DNA of 64,000 nucleotides from Sulfitobacter mediterraneus (GTDB taxonomy: Bacteria > Pseudomonadota > Alphaproteobacteria > Rhodobacterales > Rhodobacteraceae). This document shows positions 20,872 through 26,578 of this stretch, one piece after another. The notes under the pieces were generated by a model. That model was given only the letters and a program-made list of their open reading frames with translations. It ran no database searches and was not told the origin of the DNA. The translations under genes and the position numbers were made by a program. The DNA lies in assembly GCF_016801775.1 (NCBI RefSeq), contig NZ_CP069004.1, positions 2,542,001-2,606,000 on the forward strand. The letters run 5' to 3'. The stretch's first letter is position 1. The number at the start of each line of letters is the position of its first letter.

Positions 20872-21270
20872 CTAGACCAGCGCCCGTGTGATCATGACCC
20901 CGGCCCAAGCAGAAAACCCAGTGAGGACCCCACCCCAAAGACTGTCAACGACGACCTGCGTCATCGACCAGTCACGCAGGGTCGCATAGTTGGTAAACTC
21001 GTAGGTGCCATAGGCCATCAGACCAAGCAGCGCGCCGCCAATCAACGCCGCAACCGGATTACCGTCCCGCAAAGCAGGCAATGACACAAACCAAAGCAGG
21101 CCCGCGACATAACCAAGATAAAACACCGCCGCCGGCACAACACGGAACGGATCGGCATAAAGATGCGCGATGTGCCGGTCGAACACTGGTTTGATCAACA
21201 GTCTCAGACCCACGGCATCCGCAGCAAAAAACACCAGAACGGTCGAGAGGTACAGAACAAGAATTTTCAT
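20872..21270 (-). CDS. DUF2177 membrane protein
   Basis: 132 residues, four predicted membrane helices (about 4-22, 45-65, 75-92, 110-130), with the family text FFAADAVGLRLLIKPVF, YGTYEFTNYATLRDW and VVVDSLWGGVLTG. Function unknown. It is the last gene of the minus-strand operon that starts at 25217 and is 27 nt after the SDR gene. DUF2177 proteins often sit with Cfa/DUF1365/flavoprotein genes, which supports membership in the RpoE-controlled lipid unit. Confidence 0.83.
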   Translation of the reverse strand: MKILVLYLSTVLVFFAADAVGLRLLIKPVFDRHIAHLYADPFRVVPAAVFYLGYVAGLLWFVSLPALRDGNPVAALIGGALLGLMAYGTYEFTNYATLRDWSMTQVVVDSLWGGVLTGFSAWAGVMITRALV

Positions 21271-21297: not shown

Positions 21298-22035
21298 TTA
21301 GCGGGTCAAACGCCCGGTTAGAGGCAGAGCCGCCCAATAGGGCAGCGCACTCAACCACTTGAGCGGCCATGTGAGGCGGCGCGGGAAATGCACTTCGAAG
21401 GAACGGCCCATCAGTCCTTTGATGATCTCCTCCGCAGCACGTTCTGGGGTCACCATGGCGGGCATGTCAAAATCGTTCTGCGCGGTCAGTCGGGTCTCAA
21501 CAAAACCGGGGTTGATCAGCCTGACGTCCACCTTTCCCGAGAGTTCAGCCCTGAGGGTTTCGGCAAGGTTGATGACCGCCGCTTTGGTCGCGGAATAGAT
21601 CTGTCCTTGCGGCAATCCGATGTAGCCTGCCACCGATCCACAAAGCGCCATCTGCCCGCCCGCACGCAATACCTTTGGTGCCACCTGCGCCACATGAAAG
21701 GTTCCGGCCAAATTCACGGTAACAATCTGTTCGGCCTTGTTAGGGTCCAGATCTGCAAGCTTTCCAGGGTCGTAGATCGCCGCCAGGTGCACAACGCGGT
21801 CAACCGGCCCGATCTTTGCGATGGCATCCGACGCGCGATCAAGGCTGGCACGATCCGACACATCCAGCGGCTGCGCCACATGGTCCGGTCCCAGTTCAGC
21901 CGCAAATGCCTCAAGCTTGTCTTCGGACCGTGCTGACAGGATCAGACGTGCGCCTTTGGCCGACCAAGCGCGGGCCAGGGCCGCGCCGATCCCGTCACTG
22001 GCCCCGATGATCCAAATGATCTCACGCTCAGACAT
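21298..22035 (-). CDS. SDR-family oxidoreductase in the RpoE-linked lipid operon
   Basis: 245 residues. Cofactor motif IIGASDGIGAALARAW at residues ~9-24, SARSEDK after beta-2, catalytic Ser in CGSVAGYIG and YSATK. It resembles long-tail SDRs acting on lipids or ketones. Its start overlaps the end of the Cfa-type gene by 8 nt, so translation is coupled. The C-terminal stretch (RRLTWPLKWLSALPYWAALPL) is hydrophobic and may attach to the membrane. Confidence 0.82.
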   Translation of the reverse strand: MSEREIIWIIGASDGIGAALARAWSAKGARLILSARSEDKLEAFAAELGPDHVAQPLDVSDRASLDRASDAIAKIGPVDRVVHLAAIYDPGKLADLDPNKAEQIVTVNLAGTFHVAQVAPKVLRAGGQMALCGSVAGYIGLPQGQIYSATKAAVINLAETLRAELSGKVDVRLINPGFVETRLTAQNDFDMPAMVTPERAAEEIIKGLMGRSFEVHFPRRLTWPLKWLSALPYWAALPLTGRLTR

Positions 22036-23185
22036 GGCTCAGCTCCACTTGGACAACATCCGTTTGAGCCGCTTTGAACGAAGCGGCGCAGGCACCAAGG
22101 TAATAGCGCCAGCTCCGCAGAAAAGCGTCGTCATATCCAAGCGCCCGGATTTTGCCGGTTTTTTCTTCAATCCGCGCATCCCAGGCCGCGCAGGTGCGTG
22201 CGTAATCCTGACCAAAGGCAAGGCTGTCCGTGACCTTCAAACCGGCCCGCTCTGCCTGCTGGCGGATCGCCGCATCACACAAAAGCAAACCGCCCGGAAA
22301 TGTATGCTGCCTGATATAATCTGCAGTGCGCCGATAGGTGTCGAAATAATCGTCTGACACCGTTATCGCCTGGACCACGGCACGCCCCCCGTCGGCGAGC
22401 CGGTCCTTGAGCATCGCAAAATAGGTCGGCCAATATTTCTGGCCGACCGCTTCGATCATCTCGATGGACACGATACCATCATACTTGCCATCGCTGTCAC
22501 GGTAGTCCTGCAACCGGATGTCGGCCCGTCCGTCCAGACGGGCATCGGCATAACCTTTTTGACTGCGTGAAATGGTCAGGCCGGTCACATAACGCCCGCT
22601 GTCCGCCGCCCGCTCCGCGAAACCACCCCAGCCGCAACCGACTTCAAGCACATTTTCAGCCTCGCCAAGACGGTTCAGAATGCGGTCGTACTTGCGGTTT
22701 TGCGCCCGCAGCAAATCATTATCACCCGCCGCGAACATGGCGGAGGAATAGGTCATGCCCTCGTCCAGCCAGAGTTGGTAAAACTCGTTGCCAACATCGT
22801 AGTGCGCGCGGATATTGCGGGCTGCACCACTGCGCGAATTGGCGCGCAAAATCTGGTTGACCACACGATATTTCAGGTTTGACCAAAAGCCCGCATAGGC
22901 ATAGCCGCGAAACTGGTCGAGATTGCGAATGGCAACTTCAACCAGATCAGCGATGGAAGAGGTTTCCCAAAGGCCCGAAACGTATGTTTCACCCAATCCG
23001 ATATCCCCACGCGCCGCTATGGATGTGACGACGGACCAATCGTAAATGCGCATCTCAGCGGCCGGAGATCCTACGCCAAAATCGTAGATCTCGCCTTCAG
23101 GCGTGCGCAGGCGCAGACTGCCGGTGGTGATCCGTTCACATGTGTCGAGAAAGTCCCGCTTCACACGGTTTGTAAGAAAAAGCAT
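22028..23185 (-). CDS. Cyclopropane-fatty-acyl-phospholipid synthase family methyltransferase
   Basis: 385 residues, SAM-dependent: AHYDVGNEFYQLWLDEGMTYSSAMF and the SAM-binding motif VLEVGCGWGGFAERA, then IVSIEMIEAVGQKYW. The family adds a methylene or methyl group to the double bond of unsaturated acyl chains in membrane phospholipids. In Rhodobacter sphaeroides, as I recall, Cfa-family enzymes of the RpoE regulon contribute to methylated and furan fatty acids; which product is made here is open. The start at 23185 shares one base with the DUF1365 stop. Confidence 0.88.
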   Translation of the reverse strand: MLFLTNRVKRDFLDTCERITTGSLRLRTPEGEIYDFGVGSPAAEMRIYDWSVVTSIAARGDIGLGETYVSGLWETSSIADLVEVAIRNLDQFRGYAYAGFWSNLKYRVVNQILRANSRSGAARNIRAHYDVGNEFYQLWLDEGMTYSSAMFAAGDNDLLRAQNRKYDRILNRLGEAENVLEVGCGWGGFAERAADSGRYVTGLTISRSQKGYADARLDGRADIRLQDYRDSDGKYDGIVSIEMIEAVGQKYWPTYFAMLKDRLADGGRAVVQAITVSDDYFDTYRRTADYIRQHTFPGGLLLCDAAIRQQAERAGLKVTDSLAFGQDYARTCAAWDARIEEKTGKIRALGYDDAFLRSWRYYLGACAASFKAAQTDVVQVELSHV

Positions 23186-23940
23186 CAGCTTACCTCGGTC
23201 TTGGGCGGTGTTGGACGGGACCGGTAGTTGGCCCCTTTGAGTTTCAGGATCAGCGCCTGCCAATAGATCAGCCCGATGGTGCGCATTGCCCCAAGCGGAC
23301 GGCGCAGGCTGGCTTTGATCAGGTCCGGGCTTGTCATCGGAACGCGGGGGCCGGACAGTGTCGCGACAACTCCCTCCTCACCATTTTTGTGAATGATCCG
23401 GATGGCAATTTGATCTTCGCGGATGTCGAACCCGAATTGGTAATGTCCTGCGACGTCCTGATAGGGCGACACATGCAGCCATTTCGGCTTTTCGATGCGG
23501 CTTTCACTGGTGATCGGCGCAAAATCCGGCAAATGGCACAGATAGCTGTGACGGTCATGGAACGGCGTGGAGACTTCAGCAATCACCGCAACCAGATCCG
23601 ACCCCCTGAAGGCCAGCCAGAAACTGACCGGGTTAAAGACGTAGCCCAAGAACCGCGGCTGGGTCAAAAGACGCAGATCCACGCCGTGGTCCGGCAAACC
23701 ATTGGCCCGCAACGCTGCCCGCGCCCATGCAGAACCACGGCCGGCCCCAAGTGGGCCACCGTGATCCACGTCATGCACCGCGCTGAAATTGAACCTGTTG
23801 CGGGAAAACAAGAACGGACTGCGCTGATCCTGCTCGGGGTCGATCAACACGTAATCGACGCCATAGCGGAAACCATGCCGCACCGCACCCTTGCGGGTAT
23901 GGGTTGTCACCCCTGAGATATATTCCGGCGTTGATGTCAT
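23185..23940 (-). CDS. DUF1365 protein
   Basis: 251 residues with the family text GVTTHTRKGAVRHGFRYGVDYVLIDPE, LRLLTQPRFLGYVFNPVSFWLAF and HVSPYQDVAGHYQF. DUF1365 proteins almost always sit between a flavin-dependent amine-oxidase-like gene and a Cfa-type gene, as here, and are thought to help modify fatty acyl chains; the chemistry is not settled. Its ATG overlaps the stop of the flavoprotein gene by 4 nt. Confidence 0.88.
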   Translation of the reverse strand: MTSTPEYISGVTTHTRKGAVRHGFRYGVDYVLIDPEQDQRSPFLFSRNRFNFSAVHDVDHGGPLGAGRGSAWARAALRANGLPDHGVDLRLLTQPRFLGYVFNPVSFWLAFRGSDLVAVIAEVSTPFHDRHSYLCHLPDFAPITSESRIEKPKWLHVSPYQDVAGHYQFGFDIREDQIAIRIIHKNGEEGVVATLSGPRVPMTSPDLIKASLRRPLGAMRTIGLIYWQALILKLKGANYRSRPTPPKTEVS

Positions 23941-25217
23941 GCGAACTGCCGATCCATCAAACGGGCAATCCGCGCGGCGCTGGCAAATCCGTCCTCATGA
24001 AACCCGTGGCGCGTGTAGGCTCCCGCAAACCATGTGTTGTTCTGCCCCTGCAGATCACGCAACTTCTGCTGGGCGTTCAGCGCAGCAGCATCAAAAACCG
24101 GATGGCGGAACGTCTTTTGATCGTAAATCAATTCATCGGGCACCCGATCAGACGGATTCAGTGAGACAAAGAGCGGATCTGTCTCGGGAATGTTCTGCAA
24201 CCGGTTCATCCAATAAGTCACACCAATCGCTGGCTCCGGCCGCGTGGTGTCGGCCTTGTAAACCCAACTGGACCAAACCGATTTGTTCTTGGGCATTTGC
24301 GCAGTGTCACGGTGCAGGATCATCTGGTTGTCCTGAAACCGGATCGCGGATAACGCGGACTGCTCTTGCGGAGTTGACCGTTCCAGAATCCGCAAGGCCT
24401 GATCGGGATGGCAGGCAAAGATCACCTGGTCAAAGGTTTCGTCCGGGGCTCCGGCGGTGTGAACCGTGCTTTGGGTCCCGGTCCTGCTGACACCTTGCAC
24501 AGGTGTACCTGTGCGAAGCGCCACTCCGCGCCCGCGCAGATGCGCTTCCAAACGGCGCACATATTCGATGCTGCCACCATCAACCGTCCACCATTGATGC
24601 TGACCAAATGTGCTCAGCAAGGCGTGGTTGCGAAAAAACTGGATCAGCGCACGCGCCGGAAAAGACCGGATCTTGTCTGGCGGCGTTGACCAGATCGCAC
24701 CGCAAAGCGGCATCAGGTAATAGCGCTGAAACCAATCGCCCAATTTCAGATCGTCCATAAACTCTCCGATTGTGGCGTCCGTATCGCCGGTCGTTTCCTC
24801 AGCCTTTTTGTTGAACCGCAGGATATCGGCCAGCATGCGGGTAAAGCCGGGCCGCATCAGATTGCGTGGCTGGGCAAACAGTGCCGCGATGGTGTTCAAA
24901 CCGTATTCGATCCGGCCATCATCAATCGACGCCCCGAAACTCATGTCACTTTTGGCCACTGGTACGTCCAGATCCTGGAACATTCGGGTCAGATGTGGGT
25001 AATTGGCATAGTTGAAAACGATAAACCCGGTATCGACAGGCTGATCCCCATTCAGGCCCGCCATGACTGTGCGGGCATGGCCGCCCAATCGCGGCGCGGC
25101 CTCATAAACTGTAACCGCATGATGCGGCGCCAACAGGTAGGCCGCAGCCAATCCAGAGATCCCTCCACCAATGATAGCGACACGTTGCGGGCGGATGGGA
25201 AGGGCATCAAATGACAT
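23937..25217 (-). CDS. FAD-dependent amine-oxidase-like oxidoreductase of the lipid operon
   Basis: 426 residues with N-terminal FAD motif VAIIGGGISGLAAAYLLA (residues ~13-30), VYEAAPRLGGHARTV, and the middle text VDTGFIVFNYANYPHLTRMFQDLDV typical of the protoporphyrinogen-oxidase-like proteins paired with DUF1365 and Cfa. It is the first gene of a five-gene operon. The predicted RpoE promoter at 25242-25271 would give a leader of about 18 nt carrying GGAG, which fits this start well. Confidence 0.87.
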   Translation of the reverse strand: MSFDALPIRPQRVAIIGGGISGLAAAYLLAPHHAVTVYEAAPRLGGHARTVMAGLNGDQPVDTGFIVFNYANYPHLTRMFQDLDVPVAKSDMSFGASIDDGRIEYGLNTIAALFAQPRNLMRPGFTRMLADILRFNKKAEETTGDTDATIGEFMDDLKLGDWFQRYYLMPLCGAIWSTPPDKIRSFPARALIQFFRNHALLSTFGQHQWWTVDGGSIEYVRRLEAHLRGRGVALRTGTPVQGVSRTGTQSTVHTAGAPDETFDQVIFACHPDQALRILERSTPQEQSALSAIRFQDNQMILHRDTAQMPKNKSVWSSWVYKADTTRPEPAIGVTYWMNRLQNIPETDPLFVSLNPSDRVPDELIYDQKTFRHPVFDAAALNAQQKLRDLQGQNNTWFAGAYTRHGFHEDGFASAARIARLMDRQFA

Positions 25218-25241
25218 GTAGGCTCCAGTGCTTATTCCCTC

Positions 25242-25271
25242 TGGTTACGAGACGCGAAAAAAATTGGATCA
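25242..25271 (-). promoter_or_regulatory. ECF (RpoE) promoter of the lipid-modification operon
   Basis: On the minus strand, TGATCC (25271-25266) is followed after exactly 18 nt by TAACCA (25247-25242). TGATCC is the -35 hexamer known for Rhodobacter RpoE promoters. It lies 24 nt before the start of the flavoprotein gene and is the mirror image of the rpoE promoter. Confidence 0.72.
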
Positions 25272-25275
25272 AAAA

Positions 25276-25305
25276 TGATCCGACTTTTATCGCCCCCCGT
25301 AATGA
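25276..25305 (+). promoter_or_regulatory. ECF (RpoE) autoregulatory promoter of rpoE-chrR
   Basis: TGATCC at 25276-25281, an 18-nt spacer, then TAATGA at 25300-25305. Spacing and hexamer equal those of the divergent promoter; the two -35 boxes face each other across AAAA. The leader to the rpoE start at 25376 would be about 63 nt. Confidence 0.75.
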
Positions 25306-25375
25306 GATTATGCTGATTGCGAGCCTAAATATCCCAACCACGCTCAAACCGCCCCCTGCGCGGTTTGGAAAGGAC

Positions 25376-25942
25376 ATGACACAGGTGACGAAACCGTCAG
25401 CCCAAGTCTCTCCACAGACAACGTGGATGCTATTGGTCCGCGACCAACGCGACCGCGACGCCTTTGCGATGCTGTTTGATTTTTTTGCACCGCGCCTAAA
25501 GGGTTTCATCATGCGGTCCGGCATGGGCACCGGGCAAGCCGAAGAGATCGTGCAAGAGGTGATGCTGACCGTCTGGCGCAAGTCAGCGCAATTTGATCCC
25601 GAACGCGCTCAGGTTTCAGCATGGATTTATCAGATCGCCCGCAACCGCCAGATCGACGTAATCCGTAAAGAAAACCGCCCCCTTCCCGAAGAACTGGCCG
25701 AGGATCCAGAGACCGAGCCAGACGCCGGTCAGATCCTCGCCGTGGAGCAAGAGGCGGGGGCACTGAAGAAAGCGTTATCGCTGCTCAAACCCGATCAACG
25801 TGAAATTATTGAAAAGGCCTATCTCGGAGAGCTGACCCATCAGGAGATCCGCACCCAGACCGGCCTGCCGCTTGGCACAATAAAATCCCGCATTCGACTG
25901 GGATTGGAAAAGTTGCGCCATGAACTCAAGGACATGCGTTAA
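25376..25942 (+). CDS. rpoE: RNA polymerase ECF sigma factor RpoE (ChrR-controlled, ECF11 type)
   Basis: 188 residues with sigma region 2 (FAMLFDFFAPRLKGFI...AEEIVQEVMLTVWRKSAQFDP, DVIRKENR) and region 4 (ALSLLKPDQREIIEKAYLGELTHQEI, LPLGTIKSRIRLGLEKLR). It directs transcription of the photooxidative (singlet oxygen) stress regulon when released by ChrR. The frame is open from 25211, but the predicted promoter lies inside that stretch, and GGAAAGGAC precedes the ATG at 25376. chrR follows with no gap. Confidence 0.93.
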   Translation: MTQVTKPSAQVSPQTTWMLLVRDQRDRDAFAMLFDFFAPRLKGFIMRSGMGTGQAEEIVQEVMLTVWRKSAQFDPERAQVSAWIYQIARNRQIDVIRKENRPLPEELAEDPETEPDAGQILAVEQEAGALKKALSLLKPDQREIIEKAYLGELTHQEIRTQTGLPLGTIKSRIRLGLEKLRHELKDMR

Positions 25943-26578
25943 ATGACCGCAATAAATCATCATATCCCTGACGATCTGCTGGCCGCCTATGCCGCTGGCA
26001 CTTTGCCGCATGCCTATGCGGTGGTCGTGGCCGCCCATGTTTCGCTGTGCCTGGATTGCCGCGCAGGATTTGAAGCGCATCAAATGGCAGGCGGCGCCAT
26101 TTTGGAGACCGCCACCAGCGAAGCTGTGTCAGGTGATCTGAAGCACAGCACCTTGGCCCTGCTGGACGAACCTGTACCGGTCGAGAAAACCTATGCGCGG
26201 TCAGGTGTGTATCCCGGACCTGTGATGGAAGCCCTCAAGGGCAAGCCGCCGCGGTGGAAGTCTCTGGGCCTTGGCGTGCGGCAGTGCATCCTGTCCGGTG
26301 ATCGCGACGGATCAGTGCGGCTTCTTTATATTCCCCCCGGTCAGGCTGTGCCGGATCACTCCCACAACGGATTGGAACTGACATTGGTTCTGCAAGGCAG
26401 TTTCAGCGATGAAACCGGGCGGTTCGGTGTGGGCGATCTGGAAGTCGCGGATCAGGATCTGGAACACACACCCATTGCGGATGCTGGCCCCCCTTGCATC
26501 TGCCTGGCGGCGACGGATGCACCGCTTCGTTTCAGTGCCCTGTTGCCGAGACTGCTCCAGCCGTTGTTCAAAATCTGA
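25943..26578 (+). CDS. chrR: Anti-sigma factor ChrR (ZAS + cupin)
   Basis: 211 residues. The N-terminal zinc anti-sigma domain has His6/His7, His32 and the C36-x-x-C39 pair (HVSLCLDC) that bind zinc and hold RpoE. The C-terminal cupin domain (PDHSHNGLELTLVLQGSF, then H...HTP) has the metal-binding His/His/Glu set needed for the response to singlet oxygen. ATG follows the rpoE stop directly, so the pair is co-translated at matched level. The layout equals that of the R. sphaeroides rpoE-chrR locus. Confidence 0.93.
   Translation: MTAINHHIPDDLLAAYAAGTLPHAYAVVVAAHVSLCLDCRAGFEAHQMAGGAILETATSEAVSGDLKHSTLALLDEPVPVEKTYARSGVYPGPVMEALKGKPPRWKSLGLGVRQCILSGDRDGSVRLLYIPPGQAVPDHSHNGLELTLVLQGSFSDETGRFGVGDLEVADQDLEHTPIADAGPPCICLAATDAPLRFSALLPRLLQPLFKI

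Follow-up and report, generated by a model that had tools for sequence, protein, structure and literature searches.

Putative divergent RpoE-type promoters between rpoE-chrR and a furan-fatty-acid-type operon, with a conserved, predicted leaderless start of rpoE

Can a short palindrome between two divergent genes serve as the start point of both, and how would the two transcripts then begin? The question is raised by a window of Sulfitobacter mediterraneus DNA, i.e. the whole stretch of 64,000 nucleotides that was analysed (contig NZ_CP069004.1, positions 2,542,001 to 2,606,000 of the forward strand). In this window GGATCA (25266-25271), AAAA (25272-25275) and TGATCC (25276-25281) form an inverted repeat whose positions were verified. 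An earlier note on this DNA had described it as two head-to-head TGATCC hexamers 4 bp apart, and all of its coordinates are correct. Outward of each hexamer lie 18 nt and then TAA (TAATGA at 25300-25305 on the right, TAACCA on the left). The pattern GGATCANNNNTGATCC has a single occurrence in the window, with a mean of 0.00 in 100 shuffles. The looser pattern TGATCC-N17..19-TAA occurs twice, with a shuffle mean of 0.55, and since 11 of the 100 shuffles contain at least two such sites, the TGATCC/TAA half is weak on its own. A second genomic occurrence of GGATCANNNNTGATCC (C3:108970) was rejected as a promoter pair and attributed to chance; it lies in a reading frame among type-II-secretion-like genes, which were named by eye from the translation.

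The TAA-starting hexamers had been proposed as -10 boxes. The 18 nt and the TAA are present, but the conserved -10 element is CGTA, 16 nt after TGATCC. In R. sphaeroides the same cognate pair of sigma and anti-sigma factor, sigma-E (RpoE) and ChrR of group ECF11, goes with the published motif TGATCC-N15-GCGTA, as given in the available text of PMC5036791. Both sites in the window follow this motif exactly, including the N15 spacing, apart from CCGTA (right) and TCGTA (left) in place of GCGTA, and the earlier assignment of TGATCC to the -35 of Rhodobacter RpoE agrees with it as well. In the genome itself TGATCC-N15..17-CGTA is found at 21 sites, two of which are the present pair, as against 2 for the reversed control; some of the remaining 19 places may mark other members of the RpoE regulon. 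The features of the locus, apart from the starts of rpoE, are as follows.

20872..21270, minus strand: DUF2177 membrane protein (domain search)
21298..22035, minus strand: short-chain dehydrogenase, 245 aa (domain search; size as RSP1087)
22028..23263, minus strand: CMAS-family methyltransferase (domain search; start uncertain, the ORF overlaps its neighbour)
23185..23940, minus strand: DUF1365 protein, 251 aa, UfaO-like (RSP1090) (domain search; size)
23937..25217, minus strand: flavin amine-oxidase-like protein, UfaD-like (RSP1091 in R. sphaeroides) (Pfam Amino_oxidase; class, position)
25246..25271, minus strand: left RpoE-type promoter, -35 TGATCC at 25266-25271, N16, -10 CGTA at 25246-25249 (exact pattern match)
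25272..25275, no strand: AAAA between the -35 boxes, shared upstream A-tract (position check)
25276..25301, plus strand: right RpoE-type promoter, -35 TGATCC at 25276-25281, N16, -10 CGTA at 25298-25301 (exact pattern match)
25310..25942, plus strand: rpoE, long form, ECF sigma factor, 210 aa (Sigma70_r2 and r4, run from 25376 on)
25943..26578, plus strand: chrR, ChrR-family anti-sigma factor (TIGR02451 and Cupin_7 above cut-off)

The best solved relative of the window RpoE is the R. sphaeroides protein (2q1z). ChrR scores 202 bits with TIGR02451 (cut-off 124.5) and 47 bits with Cupin_7 (cut-off 27), and its zf-HC2 match is just under the cut-off; the cognate RpoE and ChrR are both encoded in this genome. 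The left operon fits RSP1091-1087 of R. sphaeroides in domain class, order and size, the two being likened by their descriptions rather than by protein alignment. RSP1090 is given with 750 bp and RSP1087 with 245 aa in the accessible text, and according to the accessible part of PMC7380195 furan fatty acid synthesis involves RSP1091 as UfaD and RSP1090 as UfaO. Taken from its first TTG, the CMAS reading frame shares 79 nt with the DUF1365 gene, and the true CMAS start is probably further in. As judged from the sequence, it is well supported that the two sites are divergent RpoE-type promoters, i.e. that the right arm leads to rpoE-chrR and the left arm to the lipid operon. The earlier note had assigned the arms in the same way, and the motifs are conserved with both neighbours in relatives. 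From the motif match both arms can be expected to depend on RpoE.

Relatives were collected in the following manner. Among 100 family genomes searched for RpoE, 99 had a match at E <= 0.001, and the 70 best loci were used, weaker or partial matches being left out. To these were added the best 80 of 571 RpoE loci found in the named genome contigs and, from a search with R. sphaeroides RpoE as the query that matched 202 genomes, the 30 top-scoring loci. Removal of 8 duplicates from these 180 family loci gave 172 distinct ones; all counts are per locus and uncorrected for relatedness. The right promoter reaches a score of at least 9 of 10 in 165 of the 172 loci (7 are without), and 132 of the 165 carry a divergent amine-oxidase-like gene. 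Of 394 family genomes, 70 contain the two-sided pattern TACG-N16-GGATCA-N1..30-TGATCC-N16-CGTA (at 71 places in all) and none contains its reversed control. Gap sizes in that search were read by eye from the coordinates and include one gap of 10. The position relative to rpoE was checked in the 14 genomes common to both searches, the other 56 of the 70 being counted for presence alone, and in 13 of the 14 the two-sided site adjoins the RpoE match (coordinates compared by eye); in the remaining genome, G086, it lies about 2.2 kb off.

The left arm goes with the lipid gene. A left promoter (score at least 8, within 150 nt) was found in 128 of the 132 loci with a divergent lipid gene, leaving 4 without, and in 2 of the 33 loci that lack ufaD; control windows placed 400-550 nt upstream gave 4 in 165. 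In other words, the right promoter stays where the lipid gene sits elsewhere. These counts also bear on the idea that a dimeric regulator uses the palindrome as its operator, in place of two -35 boxes. The perfect inverted repeat, with arm centres 10 bp apart, would suit such a protein, but loci without ufaD seldom have a left arm and still keep the right one, and the distance between the arms reaches 142 nt in relatives, each arm retaining a CGTA-like -10 at 15-17 nt; we regard an operator as very improbable.

Upstream of rpoE in locus L048 neither the lipid gene nor a left promoter was found. ATCAAAAATGATCC is kept there, likely as the remnant of a tight pair.

The distance between the two -35 boxes was obtained in 130 of the 132 divergent loci, the 2 without a gap value being dropped. 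A gap of 3-9 nt, with the mode at 4-5, occurs in 43 of the 130, namely 3 nt in 1 locus, 4 nt in 21, 5 nt in 11, 6 nt in 2, 7 nt in 6, 8 nt in 1 and 9 nt in 1. No locus has a gap of 0-2 nt, and the wider ones run from 11 to 142 nt, with three further values of 370, 909 and 917 nt that are probably not true pairs. The 4-bp gap of the earlier note is thus present in the window and not general in the family, and since the gap is so variable, tightness is apparently not needed for function. The spacers of the 43 tight loci are 93% A/T, and 31 of them consist of A/T only. A combined tree of RpoE and the lipid protein comprises 127 loci, the three of the 130 whose gap exceeds 150 nt being excluded; on it the tight gap occupies 42 of the 64 rows of one clade as against 1 of the 63 rows of the other. 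The state changes at least 13 times on this tree, 6 of the changes being forced by well-supported branches, so the tight pair is mostly clade-bound with several gains or losses.

Outside these 172 loci, the genus nearest R. sphaeroides was treated separately (L234-L237). The gene is present in 4 of its 5 genomes, with RpoE identities of 98, 93, 84 and 83%. L235 (98%) and L236 (93%) have both promoters, with gaps of 31 and 32 nt; the gaps in L234 and L237 are about 67 and 72 nt. L235 thus shares the head-to-head promoter motifs with the window and differs from it in the gap between the -35 boxes (31 nt there, 4 here).

Does the tight spacing then mean anything? Two independent RpoE promoters may merely lie close together, the 4-bp gap being a short intergenic space filled with ordinary A-tracts and devoid of regulatory meaning. 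The spread of gaps from 3 to 142 nt and beyond, also in the R. sphaeroides genus, is what independent promoters would give, and in the wide loci the 5 nt upstream of the -35 are likewise A/T-enriched (54% right, 65% left, the comparison value in the right N16 spacer being 33%). On the other hand, 32 of the 130 gaps measure 4-5 nt and none 0-2 nt, and the tight gap persists across a diverged clade. We give this explanation a chance only a little below even. At a 4-bp gap the centres of the hexamers are 10 bp apart, about one helical turn, and the usual footprint of RNA polymerase makes it unlikely that two polymerases fit on such a site. The chances that two holoenzymes are not on the DNA together at this gap appear evenly balanced to us, and competition between the arms, as the earlier note had suggested, would fit the 4-bp geometry.

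The palindrome could also be read as an intrinsic terminator acting in both directions. Hairpins of 8 pairs (plus strand) and 6 pairs (minus strand) with T-rich tails can be drawn, and the 501 bases scanned contain 3 terminator-like sites where shuffles have a mean of 0.5. Nevertheless, the element sits between two divergent gene starts, the stems have just 3 G-C pairs each, and where the gap is long the short hairpin cannot form, yet the promoters are retained. A terminator is therefore the least probable of the readings weighed here, with hardly any likelihood left.

We return to the divergent RpoE-type promoters and to how the right transcript would begin. This concerns two further features.

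25310..25312, plus strand: predicted transcription start and leaderless ATG of rpoE (10 nt after the T of CGTA)
25368..25387, plus strand: internal start (Shine-Dalgarno GAAAGGA at 25368-25374, GTG at 25385-25387, with ATG 25376 between)

The conserved, predicted leaderless start of rpoE, which the earlier note did not contain, is the most informative result of this work. In 162 of the 165 promoter-bearing family loci the T of CGTA is followed at 10-13 nt by an ATG that shares the reading frame of rpoE and opens a stop-free extension, with a spacing of 10 nt in 155, 11 nt in 4 and 13 nt in 3; the exceptions are L115, L148 and L156. The remaining two frames of the 162 extensions contain a stop in 136 and 102 cases. 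That no stop occurs in the rpoE frame of these 162 follows from the way they were chosen; without such a choice, 1 of the 163 in-frame ATGs (L156) runs into a stop. The distance from this ATG to a fixed rpoE codon ranges from 36 to 71 codons across the loci, i.e. the frame has been kept through many changes of length. Bacterial transcription usually starts at a pyrimidine-purine step. In about 99% of the loci the ATG is directly preceded by T or C. ATG 25310 has its A 9 nt past CGTA, which equals the 9 nt between the S. meliloti ECF motif TGTCACA-N16-CGTC and its mapped start, according to the accessible text of PMC3616915. Given the conserved spacing and frame and the preceding pyrimidine, the rpoE mRNA most likely begins at the start codon, i.e. 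it would be leaderless from ATG 25310, with no room for a Shine-Dalgarno sequence. The exact 5' ends of both transcripts are predicted from spacing; that of the right transcript, 25310, is the fifth base after TAATGA, whereas the earlier note had expected the sixth to eighth. ATG 25310 is 22 codons upstream of ATG 25376 and would give a sigma factor longer by 22 residues.

As second residue of the long RpoE, 147 of 162 loci have Leu, Met, Phe, Ile or Val; in the lipid protein, whose start was readable in 115 loci, it is Ser or Pro in 109. Within 25310-25318 and the corresponding positions in relatives, codons 2-3 are thus biased, unlike those of the lipid gene, with TTG in 62, ATG in 23 and CTG in 22 of 162, often followed by Thr. 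Initial transcription, leaderless translation and an N-terminal degradation signal are candidate causes of this bias.

The long form is already present in databases, so that the long frame in itself is no novelty: among the best 120 of 1379 protein database matches, 45 have 210 aa and 18 have 183-189 aa. No report of a leaderless rpoE-chrR mRNA was found in a literature search that took in few subscription papers, and the accessible parts of PMC3616915 and PMC4842269 gave no statement on the RpoE-ChrR gene start.

Could the ATG at +1 be accidental and rpoE be translated solely from the internal start (GTG 25385 or ATG 25376)? GAAAGGA in the window is a suitable Shine-Dalgarno sequence, and a clear internal Shine-Dalgarno start is seen in 64 of 162 loci, the window included. 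Moreover, an ATG near +1 is missing from L235 and L236, which come closest to R. sphaeroides RpoE. Against this, the ATG at +1 is conserved in spacing and frame in 162 of 165 loci although the length of the extension, measured to a fixed codon, varies from 36 to 71 codons, and exclusive use of the internal start is in our view unlikely. The two starts may in fact both serve in part of the family, since internal starts with a Shine-Dalgarno sequence are in excess in the rpoE frame. Start codons in the extension that are preceded by a Shine-Dalgarno match of at least 5 nt occur in frame in 64 of 162 loci, as against 10 and 4 in the other frames; counted per start codon, the shares are 68 of 548 in frame versus 11 of 380 and 4 of 124. 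Use of both starts is what we infer from these counts. As to a promoter of its own for the short form, a scan of 25100-25600 for the sigma-70 consensus, which addresses this promoter type only, found none.

At 25346-25366, within the rpoE extension, there is an inverted repeat AAACCGC-N7-GCGGTTT that ends just before the internal Shine-Dalgarno sequence. To judge by its position, it could hide the internal start.

How far does the leaderless start reach? In the R. sphaeroides genus an in-frame ATG is also lacking in L237, and in L234 one follows at 16 nt. Beyond the family, 65 loci were drawn from matches in 135 genomes, 25 of them the best-scoring and 40 hand-picked. A promoter with a score of at least 9 is present in 44 of the 65, and 18 of the 65 are without such a promoter. 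An in-frame open ATG at 8-13 nt follows in 22 of the 44 promoter-bearing loci; with GTG admitted, a start at 9-13 nt follows in 26 of the 44, most commonly at 11 nt, and 18 are without. From this pattern and that of L234-L237 the leaderless rpoE start seems to be old in the Alphaproteobacteria and to have been lost near the model species R. sphaeroides, with the reservation that the sample is partly hand-picked. The ATG at +1, present here and absent from the R. sphaeroides-type loci L235 and L236, also means that results from R. sphaeroides may not carry over to its relatives.

Overall, transcription of a light-stress sigma factor gene and, divergently, of a membrane-lipid operon seems to set out from a single short piece of DNA. 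A divergent, compact promoter of the sigma-E (ECF11) type, with a leaderless rpoE mRNA to the right and a furan-fatty-acid-type operon to the left, is in our judgement quite probably the correct explanation. RpoE freed from ChrR would bind either of the two head-to-head -35 boxes, which share one A-tract. Transcription to the right would be autoregulation of rpoE-chrR; the mRNA would have its 5' end at ATG 25310, give or take 1-2 nt, and code for RpoE with 22 additional N-terminal residues, and the second, Shine-Dalgarno-led start inside the extension may yield a short form. Transcription to the left by RpoE would give the mRNA of the furan-fatty-acid-type operon, with a short leader into which a Shine-Dalgarno sequence would fit.

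The core regulon of R. sphaeroides includes rpoE-chrR and the furan-fatty-acid genes among its targets, and ChrR turnover under singlet oxygen is reported to depend on the latter (both from the available text of a review, PMC6852236); RSP_1090 and RSP_1091 are named in this role in the accessible part of PMC10673084. The two arms would therefore supply, on one side, the sigma factor and its brake and, on the other, the release of the brake. If the arms share one site, and perhaps exclude each other there, release of the sigma factor would be coupled to its replacement, and competition between the arms, if true, would add a balance between sigma supply and brake release. The leaderless extended start predicts a different kind of sigma factor translation under stress.

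Back-to-back divergent promoters with two -35 boxes head to head are a general class. Here, by contrast, both arms use the same ECF sigma factor, and it is encoded by one of them. We found no report of divergent overlapping promoters for an ECF sigma factor and its anti-sigma factor in a search that reached a minority of the subscription papers, and nothing on back-to-back divergent promoters together with a sigma factor in the accessible portions of that literature. An mRNA that starts exactly at the AUG of a regulator is described for the acuR-acuI-dddL operon of R. sphaeroides in the available text of PMC3017554; the regulator is a different one, and the 5' end is mapped there and predicted here.

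A further likeness is to Streptomyces coelicolor sigma-R, in the accessible sources likewise an ECF sigma factor with a zinc-binding anti-sigma factor (RsrA there, ChrR here). Its promoter sigRp2 is sigma-R dependent. From this upstream promoter a longer, unstable isoform, sigma-R-prime, is made, as stated in the available part of PMC4921905. The extended frame in the window likewise begins at a predicted autoregulated promoter, as in the SigR/SigR-prime type. The N-terminal extension comprises 55 residues in sigma-R-prime and a predicted 22 here, and instability and a second promoter are known for the Streptomyces system. The likeness, as an analogy, is one of logic and not of descent.

A wider proposal, possible but rather doubtful in our estimation, joins these points. 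Alphaproteobacterial rpoE would produce a leaderless, N-terminally extended sigma-E from its autoregulated promoter and a short form from the internal start, so that stress-induced and basal sigma-E would differ as proteins. The extended form would be a convergent counterpart of Streptomyces sigma-R-prime, missed because its start was apparently lost around R. sphaeroides. In many roseobacters, moreover, the rpoE promoter would stand back to back with the promoter of the lipid genes for ChrR turnover, and sigma factor release and resynthesis would compete for one DNA site.

Two-sided RpoE-type promoters were also seen in other settings. In one genome such a site lies about 2.2 kb from rpoE (G086:C7:188426-188507, locus L218), and no lipid gene was found within 1.5 kb of that rpoE. 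Another genome has two of them about 5.5 kb apart (G206:C33:245060-245131 and 250623-250696).
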